From Planctomycetota bacterium (lineage in GTDB: Bacteria > Planctomycetota > B15-G4), in the NCBI GenBank assembly GCA_029259745.1, contig JAJDEO010000024.1, positions 124,001-188,000 on the forward strand: a DNA stretch of 64,000 bases, read 5' to 3'. This document shows positions 36,752-42,431 of this stretch, one piece after another. Made by a program: the position numbers and the translations under genes. Each line of letters starts with the position of its first letter. The first letter of the stretch is position 1. The notes below the pieces were generated by a model that was not told the origin of the DNA, made no database searches, and saw nothing but the letters and a program-made list of their open reading frames with translations.

Positions 36752-36972
36752 GAAAGTGGGCATAACCGGCCCTTGAGGACGGATCGCGACCCTCCGCGCC
36801 GCCGCGTGGCCACATCGAGACACCCGTCCCGGATGTTCGACACTTGCAGAGATGCGCAAACCGCACCTAACATCCATCGGTCTTGGTGCATCAGTCATCC
36901 TCTCTCGACGCCGCTGGGCGGGCAGCGACCCGGCGTCCGAGCGCCCGTATCCCGCTGCCTCGGAGGGTCGCG
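36752..36972. other. Divergent intergenic region
   Basis: 221 bp between the broken lipoprotein (minus) and the lamin-tail exoprotein (plus). It ends with a clear GGAGG (36962-36966) placed for the exoprotein ATG at 36973. No other distinct element seen. Confidence 0.5.
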
Positions 36973-38727
36973 ATGCGACTTCTTTCCATCCTTGGTGTTG
37001 CCGCTCTCACGAGCGCCGCCTTCGCACAAACACCTCAACGCGTCGACGTCGAGAACATCACGCACGTCGGTGTCTACCACGTGGCAACGAACACGATCAC
37101 ACCGGCGTCGCAGTTCGAAGGCACGCCGGCTCTCGTCTTCGACAACACGGCGTTCGCTGGCTCGTTCTTCGCGCCGGGCCCCGGCACGAAGAACCTCGAC
37201 TGGGCCGACCTCTCGGCCGTCGGCCAGAACGAGCTCACCGAGTTCGTCCTCGGCTACGCCACGTCGGAACTCGGCACCGTCGACGTCAACGTCGAGTTCC
37301 GCTCCGGCACGGCCGGCTTCAGCGTGCAGGGCGCGCTCGAAGCCGCCTTCAGCCTGACCGGTCTGCCCGGCTCCGTCTCGGGTGGTCCCGAGGCCTTCGC
37401 CGTCACGGTCGACCTGACGGGCGCCGAGTTCGTCCTTCCCGACGGTGACTTCGGCTACTCCTTCGAAGCCCTCGACTCGACGACGGGCCCGCTGCTCGTC
37501 GGCCCGCCGAACCCGGCCGGTGTCGAAGACGCGTGGGACATCTACGACCTCGCCGACACCTACCTCGGTACGAGCTTCTTCGGTGGCACGCCGCTCGCGT
37601 CGTTCTACCTCACGCTCACGGGCCAGCAGCCCGCGCTCGAGCCGACGGCTCCCGCGCGCCTGCTGCTCAGTGAGTTCGCGGTGACGCCGACGGACGGTGA
37701 GTTCGTCGAGATCTTCAACCCGAACAGCTACCCGGTCGACCTCACGGACGTGTACCTCACGGACGGGACGTTCGCCGGCGGCAACACGTACTACTACCAG
37801 ATCGTCGAAGGTGGCGGCGGTGGCGGTGGCTTCGGCGACTTCTACGCACGCTTCCCGGCCGGCGCCTCGATCGGCCCGGGCGAGTACCAGACCGTCGCGC
37901 TGAACGGCTCGATCGCGTTCCTCGCGACCTTCGGTGTCCTGCCCACCTACGAGACGGCCGAAGACGACATCGTCCCGGATGCGATCCCGGAGATGCTCGA
38001 AGCCACGCCGGGTTCGCTCGGCACCGACTTCCAGGGTGGCCTGACGAACTTCGGTGAAGTCGTCGTGCTCCTCTACTGGGATGGCGAAAGCGACCTCGTG
38101 CAGGATCTCGACTACGTCGTCTACGGCGACAAGGTCGAGGCCATCGACAAGACGGGCGTCGCGATCGACGGTCCGGACGTCGACACCGACACGAGCACCT
38201 ACGCCGACGACACGGCGATCATCGATCAGGATGGCGCCGTCGCCGGTGCAACGGGCGGTCACGCCGGTGGCAACTCGTGGCAGCGTCAGCACCTCTCGGA
38301 AGGCTCGGAGATCCGCACGGGCGGAAACGGTGTGACGGGCAACGACGAAATGTCCGAGAACGTGTCGTTCACGTGGGTCGACGATGTCGCCACGCCGAAC
38401 GCTCCTGCGGCCGGCGCCGTCTCGGTGCGTCTTGCTCCGGGTTCGCTCGGTCGCAACACGGTCGAGCTGCGCAACGCGACGCCGGACACGCTCGTGTTCT
38501 TCGTCGCGAGCCTGGCCGAAGGTCTTGTCACGACGAACAAGTGCCCGGGCGAAGGCCTCGGCCTTGATCTCGGCGCGTTCTTGATCGAAGCGATCACGAC
38601 GGATGCAAGCGGCAACGTCGACATCCCGGTCGTGCTGATGCCCGAAGCCGGTGACATCGAAGTGCTCCTTCAGGTCGTCGACCTCGAAGGCTGCATCTGG
38701 AGCAACGTCAACGCGACCAACCTCTGA
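36973..38727 (+). CDS. Secreted protein with lamin-tail-type domain and C-terminal beta module
   Basis: 584 residues from ATG 36973, supported by GGAGG upstream. A signal peptide (AAFAQT) is followed by an N-terminal beta-rich domain of about 200 residues with no match that I recognise. Around 235-430 comes a lamin-tail (LTD) domain: LLLSEFAVTPTDGEFVEIFNPNSYPVDLTDVYLTDG is its diagnostic opening, with long loops including a run of seven glycines. The last 100 residues (VELRNATPDTLVFFVASL to GCIWSNVNATNL) resemble the tail module of other exported proteins here. LTD domains in bacteria are found on exported nucleases and surface proteins; no catalytic motif is visible. A textbook terminator follows. 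Confidence 0.85.
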   Translation: MRLLSILGVAALTSAAFAQTPQRVDVENITHVGVYHVATNTITPASQFEGTPALVFDNTAFAGSFFAPGPGTKNLDWADLSAVGQNELTEFVLGYATSELGTVDVNVEFRSGTAGFSVQGALEAAFSLTGLPGSVSGGPEAFAVTVDLTGAEFVLPDGDFGYSFEALDSTTGPLLVGPPNPAGVEDAWDIYDLADTYLGTSFFGGTPLASFYLTLTGQQPALEPTAPARLLLSEFAVTPTDGEFVEIFNPNSYPVDLTDVYLTDGTFAGGNTYYYQIVEGGGGGGGFGDFYARFPAGASIGPGEYQTVALNGSIAFLATFGVLPTYETAEDDIVPDAIPEMLEATPGSLGTDFQGGLTNFGEVVVLLYWDGESDLVQDLDYVVYGDKVEAIDKTGVAIDGPDVDTDTSTYADDTAIIDQDGAVAGATGGHAGGNSWQRQHLSEGSEIRTGGNGVTGNDEMSENVSFTWVDDVATPNAPAAGAVSVRLAPGSLGRNTVELRNATPDTLVFFVASLAEGLVTTNKCPGEGLGLDLGAFLIEAITTDASGNVDIPVVLMPEAGDIEVLLQVVDLEGCIWSNVNATNL

Positions 38728-38813: not shown

Positions 38814-40742
38814 TCAGGCCGGCGCAAACGCGCGCGTCGGGTTCGCGCCGTTCGCATCGGACGCCGTCGCCTGGTGGTCTTCACTCTTCGCGATCGAGAA
38901 GAAGAACGTGGCGCCGAAGCCCTCGCGCGATTCAACCCACACCTCACCACCATGACGCTCGACAACCCGGCGACACACCGCGAGGCCGATCCCCGTGCCC
39001 TCGTACTCGTCGCGGGCGTGGAGGCGTTGGAACACCGTGAAGATCCGCTCGGTGTGATCGGGATCGATGCCGATTCCGTTGTCGCGCACCCAGAGCACCC
39101 AGCGCGTCGACTCTTCGCGCCCGCCGACATGTATCTCGGGTGGCACGTCGCCGCGGAACTTCAGCGCGTTGCCGAGCAGGTTCTGTAGGACCTGCACGAG
39201 CTGGCCGTGGTCGGCCACGATCGTCGGCATCTGCTCGTGAATGATCGTCGCACCACTCTCTTCGATCGCGGCCCGGAGATTCGCGCAGGCTACGTCGACG
39301 ACGTCGGCGAGCTCGATCATGACGGGGCGACGCTCGGCGCGTCCGACGCGCGAATAGGCGAGGAGGTCGTCGATCAGCGCCTTCATGCGTACGGTGCCGT
39401 CGACGGCGAAGTCGATGTATTCGCGCGCTGCTCCGTCGAGTTGGTCCGCGTAGCGCATCTCGAGCAACTGGACGTAGCTCGCGACCATGCGCAGCGGTTC
39501 CTGGAGATCGTGCGACGCGACGTACGCGAACTGCTGAAGCTCGGCGTTGCTGCGCTGCGTGTCTTCGAGCAACTTCGCTGTTTCGTCGTTCTTGCCCTTG
39601 AAGACCGCCGCGGCGCGCGTCATCGCACCGATCTCATCACGGCGCTCGCGGCTCGGGATGGCGACGTCGCGGTTGCCGGCCGCGAGTTCACGGAACGTCG
39701 TCGCGATGGCGTGCAGCGGCTTCACGACGATCTTCGTGATGACGGTCGACGCCGTCAGCCCCGCGATGATCGTCACGATCGAGACCCAGAGGCTGAGATT
39801 CTCGAACCAGCGCTGCGACGCGAGAATGCTCGCGTACGACGCATCGAGCTGCTCGCTCTGGCGCTCGCGGACGCGGTTGGAGAGACGCAGGAGTTCGACC
39901 GTCTCGCCCGCGATCACGACGTTGCCGAGGTGGAGATAGCCGCGCGTGCGGCGGATGAGTTCGTGGAGGAGCTTCTCGTAGTCGCGGAACAACGCCGCGA
40001 GTTCGTCGAACTCGACCGGCTGATCCGACGTCGCGCGCACGCCCAAGAGGCGCTGGCAGGACTCGAGCCGCGCGATCGCCGACTTCACGGACGCATAGTC
40101 GAGGCGGTGGACATACTCGAGAACCTCGGCACGCGCGTTGAGGTACTCCCGCTCGAGTCGGCTTGCCAGCAGCGACATGCGGCGGTCACGCTGCTGCGAG
40201 GCTGTCTCTTCCAACGCGCCGAGCGCGGCGGCGGCCCGTGCTCCGGCATTCACGAGCAGCGTGTTCAAGAGATGATCGCGGCGTGTGCGATCGTCTTCCG
40301 CGAGCGCGAACTCGTCCTCGTAGCGCGCGAGCACGGCGCCCATCGCAACGAGGTCAGGGTTGTTGATGCCGCTCGCCGTCGCGGTCGTGATCCGGACGCG
40401 CAGCTCGTCATGGAGACTCGAGACACGTTCACCGAGCGACCCATGTCCCGCGAACATGTACAGCAGGACATGCTGCTGCAACTCGCGGACGAGCCGGTCG
40501 ATGACCACCATCTCCTCGTTCACGTGACGATCGCGATCGATCAGTTCAAGATTGCCGCGCGCGTTACTGATCCCCACGTGACCGACCGCGGCGACAGCGA
40601 TGTGGAGCGCGAGAACGACTGCGAAACCGAACGCGATCTTCGTGCCCAGACCACTGAACGCGCGCCGTGGTAGCCGCAGGCGAACCTTGATGCGGTCGAA
40701 GCGCCGTCGCATGAGCATCGACCTATGCCGTGAGGAACTCAT
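38814..40742 (-). CDS. Membrane sensor histidine kinase
   Basis: 642 residues. Transmembrane helices lie at about 33-55 and 317-340, enclosing a helical periplasmic sensor region of about 260 residues that I cannot assign. A HAMP domain follows (about 340-390), then a short coiled coil. The HisKA domain has the phosphorylated His411 in YVASHDLQEPLR, and the ATPase has the N box (QNLLGNALKFRG), G1 box (VRDNGIGID) and G2 box (EGTGIGLAVC). The kinase core belongs to the phytochrome-like HPK group. The ATG at 40742 overlaps the end of the solute-binding gene by 20 nt; ATG 40718 is an alternative. It is the last gene of a response regulator - binding protein - kinase operon, implying that the binding protein presents a ligand to this sensor. 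Confidence 0.93.
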   Translation of the reverse strand: MSSSRHRSMLMRRRFDRIKVRLRLPRRAFSGLGTKIAFGFAVVLALHIAVAAVGHVGISNARGNLELIDRDRHVNEEMVVIDRLVRELQQHVLLYMFAGHGSLGERVSSLHDELRVRITTATASGINNPDLVAMGAVLARYEDEFALAEDDRTRRDHLLNTLLVNAGARAAAALGALEETASQQRDRRMSLLASRLEREYLNARAEVLEYVHRLDYASVKSAIARLESCQRLLGVRATSDQPVEFDELAALFRDYEKLLHELIRRTRGYLHLGNVVIAGETVELLRLSNRVRERQSEQLDASYASILASQRWFENLSLWVSIVTIIAGLTASTVITKIVVKPLHAIATTFRELAAGNRDVAIPSRERRDEIGAMTRAAAVFKGKNDETAKLLEDTQRSNAELQQFAYVASHDLQEPLRMVASYVQLLEMRYADQLDGAAREYIDFAVDGTVRMKALIDDLLAYSRVGRAERRPVMIELADVVDVACANLRAAIEESGATIIHEQMPTIVADHGQLVQVLQNLLGNALKFRGDVPPEIHVGGREESTRWVLWVRDNGIGIDPDHTERIFTVFQRLHARDEYEGTGIGLAVCRRVVERHGGEVWVESREGFGATFFFSIAKSEDHQATASDANGANPTRAFAPA

Positions 40743-41982
40743 ACCACTTCACCATGCTGTACTCGTAGGTATCCATCACGGTGTTCCACACGGCCACACG
40801 CGAGAAGCGGCTGAGGTAACTCCCTCCGCGACGCAGCGAACCGGCCGACACACCCGTGCCGCCTTCCACGCCCGGAAGATGCGACCGTGCCACCTGGCCT
40901 TCGTACCAGTAGTCCCATTCATCGGCGCTCAGGTAGCGACGCGCGGGCTCGGCGACCGACATGTAGTAGCCCTGGCGCGCCATCACCGCGCCGGGCCAAC
41001 CCGACAACCACCAGTTCATGTAGCGATAGGCAGCGTCTTCGGTCTCTTCGCTCACCATCGAGGAGAGACACATCACGCCGTGCCAGGCTCGGTAGCCTTC
41101 CTTCGGTGCCGCGTAGTTGACGGCGTGCCCGGCGCTTCGCAGTGCGGACACGCCGGGAGAGAACAAACTCTCGATGACGACTTCGCCACTCTTCATCAGG
41201 GCGACCGACTGCGGCACCGACTGCCACGCCCCGTAGAAGTGTCCGTCGCGCTTCTTCGCGACGAGCAGGTCGAAGAGCGCATCGAGCTCGGAGCGCGTCA
41301 TCGCGCCGATGTCGGCGATCTCGACGAGCCCACTGGCGCGCGCTGCAAGAGCCGCGTCGAAGAGACCGATCGTCGGCTCGTTCACCAGAGCGACGCGACC
41401 GTGCCAGCGGTCGTCGAGCATCCAGGCCCAGCTCTCCGTGCCGTACGGCGTGCCCTCGGGCACGACGCTCGACGAGTAGCCGAACGAGTCGACGTTGTGC
41501 ACGTACGGCAGATAGCTCACGCGCGAACTCACCGTCTTGCCGAGCGTACCGTTGGGTTGCACATAGAGAACCTTGTGCGGTGCATCGCCGCGTCCGATCG
41601 GCGCCGAGGGCACGACCCGGCCCTTCTTCGAGACGTCGTTGATCTTCGACCAGCGCTCGATACGCGTGGTGTCGACGGCGCGAATCGCCTCCGCTTGCCA
41701 GAGCAGCGGGATGGTGTTCGACCACTGCTCGAAGAGGTCGAAACTCTCCGGTCGTGTCGAGGCCTGTTGGAGGACGGCCGCGCTCCCGCCGGGCGCGAAG
41801 ACGAGTTCGATTCCGAGGTCGCGCTCGGCGCGTTGGCGGATCTGTTCTTGGAGCGTGACGTGCGTTCCGAGCACGCGCAGCACGGGGCGACGCTTGGCAT
41901 GGAACCACGGCCCGCGCGCAGCTGGCAGCAGCGCTGCGGCCGCAATGCCGCCGAGCGCAGCGCGCCTGGACGGTTGCGTCAT
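40723..41982 (-). CDS. Tat-exported extracellular solute-binding protein (PotD-like)
   Basis: 419 residues with a twin-arginine signal (PSRRAALGGIAAAALLPAARG). The mature protein has the layout of family 1 ABC binding proteins: VLRVLGTHVTLQEQI first strand, an early PESFDLFEQWSN, and late GYRAWHGVMCLSS and RYMNWWLSGWPGAV, most like polyamine and iron-type (PotD/FbpA) binders. No permease or ATPase gene is adjacent. Instead the gene is coupled on both sides: its ATG overlaps the response-regulator stop by 4 nt, and the histidine-kinase start lies 20 bp inside its 3' end. The most economical reading is a periplasmic ligand receptor for the kinase rather than a transport component. Ligand unknown. 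Confidence 0.85.
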   Translation of the reverse strand: MTQPSRRAALGGIAAAALLPAARGPWFHAKRRPVLRVLGTHVTLQEQIRQRAERDLGIELVFAPGGSAAVLQQASTRPESFDLFEQWSNTIPLLWQAEAIRAVDTTRIERWSKINDVSKKGRVVPSAPIGRGDAPHKVLYVQPNGTLGKTVSSRVSYLPYVHNVDSFGYSSSVVPEGTPYGTESWAWMLDDRWHGRVALVNEPTIGLFDAALAARASGLVEIADIGAMTRSELDALFDLLVAKKRDGHFYGAWQSVPQSVALMKSGEVVIESLFSPGVSALRSAGHAVNYAAPKEGYRAWHGVMCLSSMVSEETEDAAYRYMNWWLSGWPGAVMARQGYYMSVAEPARRYLSADEWDYWYEGQVARSHLPGVEGGTGVSAGSLRRGGSYLSRFSRVAVWNTVMDTYEYSMVKWYEFLTA

Positions 41983-42431
41983 GAGCTCGGGCCTCGCTTC
42001 GGGACGACGGGAAGGTGCGAGGCGCCGAGCCAGTAGTCCTCGATCGCACGGACGACGTCGAAGAATGCCGAGAGGTCGACGGGCTTGTTGATGAAGGAGT
42101 TGGCCTGCAGCCGGTAGCTCTCGCTGATGTCGCGATCCGACGTGGACGTCGTCAGCACGACGATCGGGATCGCACGCAGGTCCGGGTCCGACTTGACCTC
42201 TGCCAGCACTTCGTGTCCGTTCATGCGCGGCATGTTCAGGTCGAGGAGGATGAGGTCGGGGCGCGGGGCGTCCTCGTAGCCGGGCTCACGGCGTAAGAAC
42301 GCCACGGCACGTTCACCGTCCGCCACGATGCTGAGACGATTCGGCGCCACCGACTCACTGAGCGCGACCTCCGTGAGACGCGCGTCACCCGGGTTGTCCT
42401 CGACGAGGAGAATCTCGATCGGTTCGCTCAT
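41979..42431 (-). CDS. Single-domain response regulator (Rcp1-type)
   Basis: 150 residues from ATG 42431; the frame extends upstream but without family similarity. A bare receiver domain: acidic pocket Glu11-Asp12, phosphoacceptor Asp64 in LLDLNMPRMNG, Thr in VVLTTS, and Lys116 in NKPVD. There is no output domain. This class (EILLVEDNPGDARLTEVAL) is the usual partner of phytochrome-like histidine kinases, matching the kinase two genes downstream. It opens the three-gene operon 42431-38814, so the phosphorelay partners are encoded around the binding protein. The output must be via protein interaction. Confidence 0.94.
   Translation of the reverse strand: MSEPIEILLVEDNPGDARLTEVALSESVAPNRLSIVADGERAVAFLRREPGYEDAPRPDLILLDLNMPRMNGHEVLAEVKSDPDLRAIPIVVLTTSTSDRDISESYRLQANSFINKPVDLSAFFDVVRAIEDYWLGASHLPVVPKRGPSS

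Follow-up and report, generated by a model that had tools for sequence, protein, structure and literature searches.

The 64,000-nt stretch of DNA analysed here (positions 124,001 to 188,000 of contig JAJDEO010000024.1, from a Planctomycetota bacterium, and referred to below as the window) carries an operon of three genes, which encode in order a response regulator, a solute-binding protein (SBP) and a transmembrane histidine kinase (HK) with a predicted helical bimodular (HBM) periplasmic domain (Table 1). As an initial annotation of this DNA had placed them, the three genes are coupled on one strand, through an ATGA overlap and an overlap of 20 nt; the latter is the less certain of the two because the start of the HK is uncertain, and a start at a later Met would abolish it. 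In agreement with the same annotation, which had described an operon without a transporter, no permease or ATPase genes were found to adjoin the SBP gene in the window.

Table 1. Genes and features of the operon, listed from its first gene to its last
Feature	Coordinates	Strand	Size and basis
Response regulator, single-domain Rcp1/RcpA type, first gene of the operon	41979..42431	-	150 aa; Pfam Response_reg only
ATGA overlap, response regulator stop/SBP start	41979..41982	-	sequence
Solute-binding protein (SBP), SBP_bac_8, YdcS/PotF/PotD fold, kinase-linked clade	40723..41982	-	419 aa; PF13416 E 1.5e-12
Twin-arginine motif of the SBP signal peptide (RRAAL, residues 6-10)	41953..41967	-	RR in 20/24 clade members
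20-nt overlap, SBP end/HK start	40723..40742	-	sequence
Transmembrane histidine kinase (HK): HBM periplasmic domain, HAMP, phytochrome-type core	38814..40742	-	642 aa; Pfam HAMP, HisKA, HATPase_c
Periplasmic HBM domain (predicted) of HK, between transmembrane segments TM1 (~residues 34-57) and TM2 (~316-338)	39798..40571	-	AlphaFold2 model + Foldseek; limits estimated from hydrophobicity
Conserved motif of the last periplasmic helix, consensus RGYLxLVNVVMAGxAxEF, residues 267-284	39891..39944	-	alignment of 17 kinases
HAMP domain of HK	39612..39740	-	PF00672 E 1.3e-7
HisKA + HATPase_c kinase core	38892..39539	-	PF00512 + PF02518; bacteriophytochrome in the PDB, E 5.4e-38

Relatives of the SBP were sought in one genome collection and in 98 relatives of the window genome, and further around two carriers, one from the Alteromonadaceae (198 genomes of one order) and one Marinomonas (369 genomes of one class), the genome-wide search being made with exact short patterns, which favour close relatives. 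In all 24 members of the clade to which the window SBP belongs, a count that takes in the window itself, the SBP gene is followed on its own strand by a gene for an HK with the same periplasmic domain, at a spacing of 0-80 nt or with an overlap (the apparently long overlaps in L005 and L054 are open frames that extend upstream of the start). These members come from Planctomycetota (L002, L005 and the window's family), Gammaproteobacteria and Campylobacterota (L014), so that the synteny which the initial annotation had proposed to look for exists, as SBP followed by HBM kinase, in three phyla. That annotation had also named ABC (ATP-binding cassette) permease genes in homologous operons as evidence that would speak against it; the retrieved flanks of the 24 clade members contain no permease or ATPase homologues. 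Because the kinase pairing holds in 24 of 24 members, the gene arrangement is far beyond chance. An accidental gene order without function, for which we found no supporting points, is hardly credible in the face of this synteny and of the exact co-occurrence of the two genes described below.

A maximum-likelihood tree of 39 SBPs places the kinase-linked proteins on one side of a branch that has a support of 100/99 and is present in 100% of bootstrap trees; with shuffled linkage labels, 12 changes were needed on average. The sister group of the clade has long branches and its exact composition is unsure. Permease and/or ATPase genes lie near 11 of the 13 distant SBP relatives (the contig ends too early in L022, and neither gene is found in L053). 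The ABC-linked sister SBPs (L016-L018, L020, L021, L094-L099) are full-length, with 33-46% identity for those aligned, and have a conserved core in common with the window SBP, including R298, W300 and W324, but permease and ATPase genes adjoin them and an HBM kinase adjoins none. The two groups also differ at 47 positions that are kept (>=95%) in the kinase-linked group and rarely identical in the ABC-linked group; examples are H41, T43, Q45, E85, W87, S88, Y160 and F274, the last of which is Trp in all 13 others. By analogy with PotD and PotF, several of these clade-specific positions should sit in loops that line the ligand pocket.

Asp/Glu/hydantoin racemase, LamB/YcsF, FAA hydrolase, amidohydrolase or asparaginase genes adjoin the ABC-linked L095, L096, L098, L017 and L018, and the nature of these genes suggests that the corresponding transporters might handle nitrogen-containing cyclic or amide ligands. 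We did not carry this guess over to the kinase-linked clade, because the probable pocket positions differ between the groups. Two distantly related SBPs of the superfamily are present within one ABC transporter cluster at L016:3216-11231 and at L018:2800-9191. A further distant relative (L053, L101, genome G205; 43% identity), with neither a kinase nor an ABC permease nearby, has genes for an MFS transporter, a CobW GTPase and an FAD-dependent oxidoreductase as neighbours.

Among the 198 genomes of one order, a clade-type SBP and the HBM kinase domain occur in the same eight (p ~2e-14, with relatedness ignored), and a ninth genome with a distant SBP (43% identity) is without the HBM kinase domain. 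Carriers are few, at 8/198 in this order and 2/98 near the window. Thirteen carrier genomes have just one strong match to the HBM kinase each, next to the SBP gene, and the carriers searched have one full-length clade SBP each. The genome of Marinomonas spartinae has one further hit to the SBP profile, of partial length (G104:C24:3921-4313, L036; E 1e-14), outside its kinase-linked locus. In the window genome, no second member of the window SBP family was found; PF13416 has three matches in total, one of which (on C62) has its own permeases alongside.

These counts bear on the question of whether the SBP might be bifunctional, serving a remote ABC or other permease as well as signalling its ligand load to the kinase, a double role for which BctC, with BctE as its kinase, is the precedent (PMC9602780). 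The family otherwise consists of transporter SBPs, and ten PF00528 permease matches are present in the window genome, some of which do not adjoin a recognised SBP_bac_8 protein. Against such a double role stand the lack of permeases near any of the 24 clade members, the single clade SBP per genome, always beside the kinase, and the probable pocket positions that are unlike those of ABC-linked relatives, and we consider it distinctly unlikely. The initial annotation had likewise foreseen that the SBP might accompany a remote transporter instead of the kinase; within the evidence at hand, which covers SBP copy number in carriers and the permease count in the window genome, the only clade SBP of a carrier adjoins the kinase.

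The window SBP matches Pfam SBP_bac_8 with 48.3 bits, above the curated cut-off of 27, and its modelled fold is the two-lobed one of SBPs. The Tat (twin-arginine translocation) type of signal that had been assigned to it can be recognised across the clade, as RR in 20/24 members (window included) and as KR in 4/24. All of the folds discussed in this report are predictions. The AlphaFold2 model of the SBP (predicted local distance difference test, pLDDT, 90.6) has YdcS, PotF and PotD as its nearest solved folds in Foldseek, with YdcS (6nlp, E 2e-16) as the top match in the PDB. Of the earlier designation "PotD/FbpA-like" the PotD part stands, and YdcS/PotF/PotD-like is the better label by these fold matches. 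Two polyamine-binding acids of PotF, Asp247 and Asp278, are not kept in the window SBP, where an alignment at low identity puts Ser272 and Gly302 in their places; Ser272 is invariant in the family. The structural alignment with PotF has an identity of ~16%. The proposal of a polyamine ligand by analogy with PotD is weakened by this loss. A polyamine sensor, in which an NspS-like SBP would be coupled to a kinase instead of to MbaA, is compatible with the interpretation that we favour below and could draw on the nearest solved folds as well as on NspS itself, a PotD-class protein dedicated to signalling (PMC5646818), but in view of the substitutions and the distance from PotF we regard it as unlikely. 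Since the PotF acids are lost and the probable pocket-loop positions are unlike those of ABC-linked relatives, a classical polyamine is improbable as the ligand, and so is the compound that the ABC transporters import. Inspection of neighbouring genes by eye, with no formal test, found none that recur across lineages and might name the ligand.

The region of the HK that the initial annotation had left as a large unassigned periplasmic helical region is indeed all helical in the predicted model (mean pLDDT 90.3), and the modelled fold is the HBM fold of McpS and TorS. Foldseek aligns the model with the HBM domain of McpS (2yfa) at a TMt of 0.86 and a root-mean-square deviation of 2.2 over 237 columns, and with TorS (3i9y) at a TMt of 0.66; TorS from the TorT complex (3o1h) was matched with a lower score. 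Seven columns are invariant across 17 kinases, of which Y269, L272, V275, V276, G279 and E283 belong to the last periplasmic helix and the seventh to the end of HAMP, while the kinase core contributes none. A second, near-invariant patch (Q89, V92) is found in the first periplasmic helix, and counting of residues from the membrane would put the two patches at a similar height.

The HBM domains of chemoreceptors bind organic acids directly, and the top fold match of the HK is McpS with malate or succinate. One might therefore imagine that the kinase senses its ligand through the HBM domain in the manner of McpS and that the SBP is a buffer, a scavenger or a leftover. We think this very improbable, inasmuch as strict pairing in 24/24 loci and high conservation of the SBP across phyla are unlike a leftover, and TorS, which has the same fold, acts through TorT. 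Within the clade the identity between SBPs is at least 52%, with a median of 62%, compared with a median of 20% for the periplasmic domain of the partner. As the HBM fold is that of the TorS sensor, the analogy with TorT/TorS is closer than the initial annotation had proposed.

The remaining parts of the operon agree with the descriptions "Rcp1-type regulator lacking an output domain" and "phytochrome-type kinase core" that had been given to them. The response regulator consists of a receiver domain only (Pfam) and has RcpA (1k68, E 1.2e-40) and Rcp1 (1i3c, E 6e-38) as close matches among solved structures, and the kinase core of the HK is matched by bacteriophytochromes in the PDB.

Taken with gene coupling, clade-wide synteny, the absence of nearby transporter genes, co-occurrence, membership of a single clade and the predicted folds, and also with the clustering of invariant kinase columns in the last periplasmic helix, the stronger conservation of the SBP than of its partner domain and the 47 clade-specific SBP positions, these features make it highly probable, in our judgement, that the operon of the window encodes a dedicated three-component co-sensor system, in which the ligand state of the SBP is read by the HBM kinase and a signal is passed to the receiver-only response regulator. 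The SBP, a member of an ABC-transporter family whose clade would have become the fixed partner of a sensor, would be exported to the periplasm, probably via Tat, and bind a small ligand there; its ligand state would be read by the HBM domain, the resulting change relayed via TM2 and HAMP to the phytochrome-type core, and the core would phosphorylate the Rcp1-type response regulator. The physical contact of SBP and kinase, the direction of signalling, the phosphotransfer to the response regulator of the window and the loss of transport are steps that we infer.

Several points weigh against this interpretation. The HBM domain of the window HK is recognised from its predicted fold and not from its sequence: Pfam HBM (PF16591) gives weak matches in 2/17 kinases (best E 0.009) and leaves the window HK unmatched, and a PDB profile search returned mainly HAMP domains and weak helical matches. 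Direct binding of small ligands is within the capacity of HBM domains, as McpS shows, so that the kinase might do without the SBP. The path of output beyond a response regulator that is receiver-only is a further difficulty. Finally, a correlation of distance matrices, tried as a measure of SBP-HBM coevolution, was uninformative: the value for SBP and periplasmic domain (0.63) is not above that for SBP and kinase core (0.72), and so gives no separate sign of coevolution.

Lineages differ in their kinase cores and regulators but retain the SBP and the HBM motif. The core is non-hybrid in planctomycetes, a hybrid HisKA kinase with an internal receiver in most gammaproteobacteria and a PAS kinase in Thiovulum, so that the pairing of an Rcp1-type regulator with a phytochrome-type core, as described by the initial annotation, applies to the window and not to the clade as a whole. 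The window has an upstream Rcp1-type regulator; a second hybrid kinase accompanies the unit in L051 and L009, and a receiver-only regulator lies downstream of the kinase in L054 (7134-7574) and L093 (7075-7557), which gives the order SBP, HK, regulator as opposed to regulator, SBP, HK in the window. Directly upstream of the SBP in Pseudoalteromonas shioyasakiensis (L019:1914-4939, on a contig that ends before the kinase) are genes for a receiver-PAS-GGDEF-EAL protein and a receiver-GGDEF protein, a domain content that hints at a possible cyclic di-GMP output. The intermixing of phyla among the rows of the clade suggests transfer between phyla, with the deep forks of the tree weakly supported. 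A more far-reaching proposal, which we find evenly balanced between true and false, is that one ancestral event made a transporter SBP into a sensor-only protein with an HBM kinase, and that the SBP-HBM unit then passed from phylum to phylum as a separable input module placed before varied cores and outputs, sensing one conserved environmental compound.

Kinases driven by SBPs are already known as a class, through TorT/TorS, HptA/HptS and NspS/MbaA; the signalling use of a binding protein of PotD class or family 1, as the initial annotation had it, has precedents in the last two and is not new in itself. With the TorT/TorS system, which senses trimethylamine N-oxide, the window operon appears to share a periplasmic SBP adjoining, and putatively read by, a kinase with an HBM-fold sensor. 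It differs in that its SBP is an SBP_bac_8 protein with a YdcS/PotF fold (TorT was not among the 50 fold matches listed), its kinase is non-hybrid and its response regulator is receiver-only. The HptA/HptS/HptR system for glucose-6-phosphate in Staphylococcus aureus resembles it as a set of three genes for SBP, kinase and regulator, although HptR is a transcriptional regulator, unlike that of the window. The sensor of HptS is a double PDC (PMC8534201) as opposed to the all-helical HBM model of the window HK, and its host is Gram-positive; the structures indicate that the SBP switches contacts on the kinase (PMC8774646, PMC8534201), ligand binding causing it to move onto a different sensor face and TM2 to untwist (PMC8774646). 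NspS/MbaA, which responds to norspermidine in Vibrio cholerae, likewise employs a PotD-class SBP in signalling, with transport handled by PotD1 (PMC5646818), but MbaA is a GGDEF-EAL protein and not a kinase, and the ligand of NspS is a polyamine, for which the acid positions are changed in the window SBP. The HBM domain of CtpL, an example of indirect sensing via a binding protein (PMC6321045), is like that of the window HK but is part of a chemoreceptor rather than a kinase. BctC/BctE, XylFII/LytS and LuxP/LuxQ are also sensor kinases stimulated by SBPs (PMC9602780, PMC6321045), but differ from the window pair in SBP family and in periplasmic domain, and BctC in addition serves a transporter. 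TorT, LuxP and XylFII remain bound to their sensors in both ligand states (PMC6321045).

About ten SBP-driven sensor kinases had been characterised by 2022, at which time 13 SBP families were implicated in signalling and the dual role of SBPs was described as largely unexplored (PMC9602780). The literature searched (most subscription journals being outside the search) yielded no account of an SBP_bac_8 protein paired with an HBM kinase in a clade that stands apart from related transporter SBPs, and both combination and clade appear to be undescribed. A transport SBP inherited as the fixed partner of a kinase in at least three phyla would represent a widespread module for chemical sensing. Because the sensor clade is recognisable from sequence alone and has a sister group still engaged in transport, the conversion from transport to sensing becomes directly testable, with the 47 clade-specific SBP positions and the conserved motif of the HBM helix as precise targets and with named, culturable carriers in Marinomonas, Pseudoalteromonas, Psychrosphaera, Teredinibacter and Planctomycetes bacterium Poly30.

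Next to the operon, and convergent to it, the window encodes a large protein (36967-38724) with a weak match, below the cut-off, to the Lamin Tail Domain.

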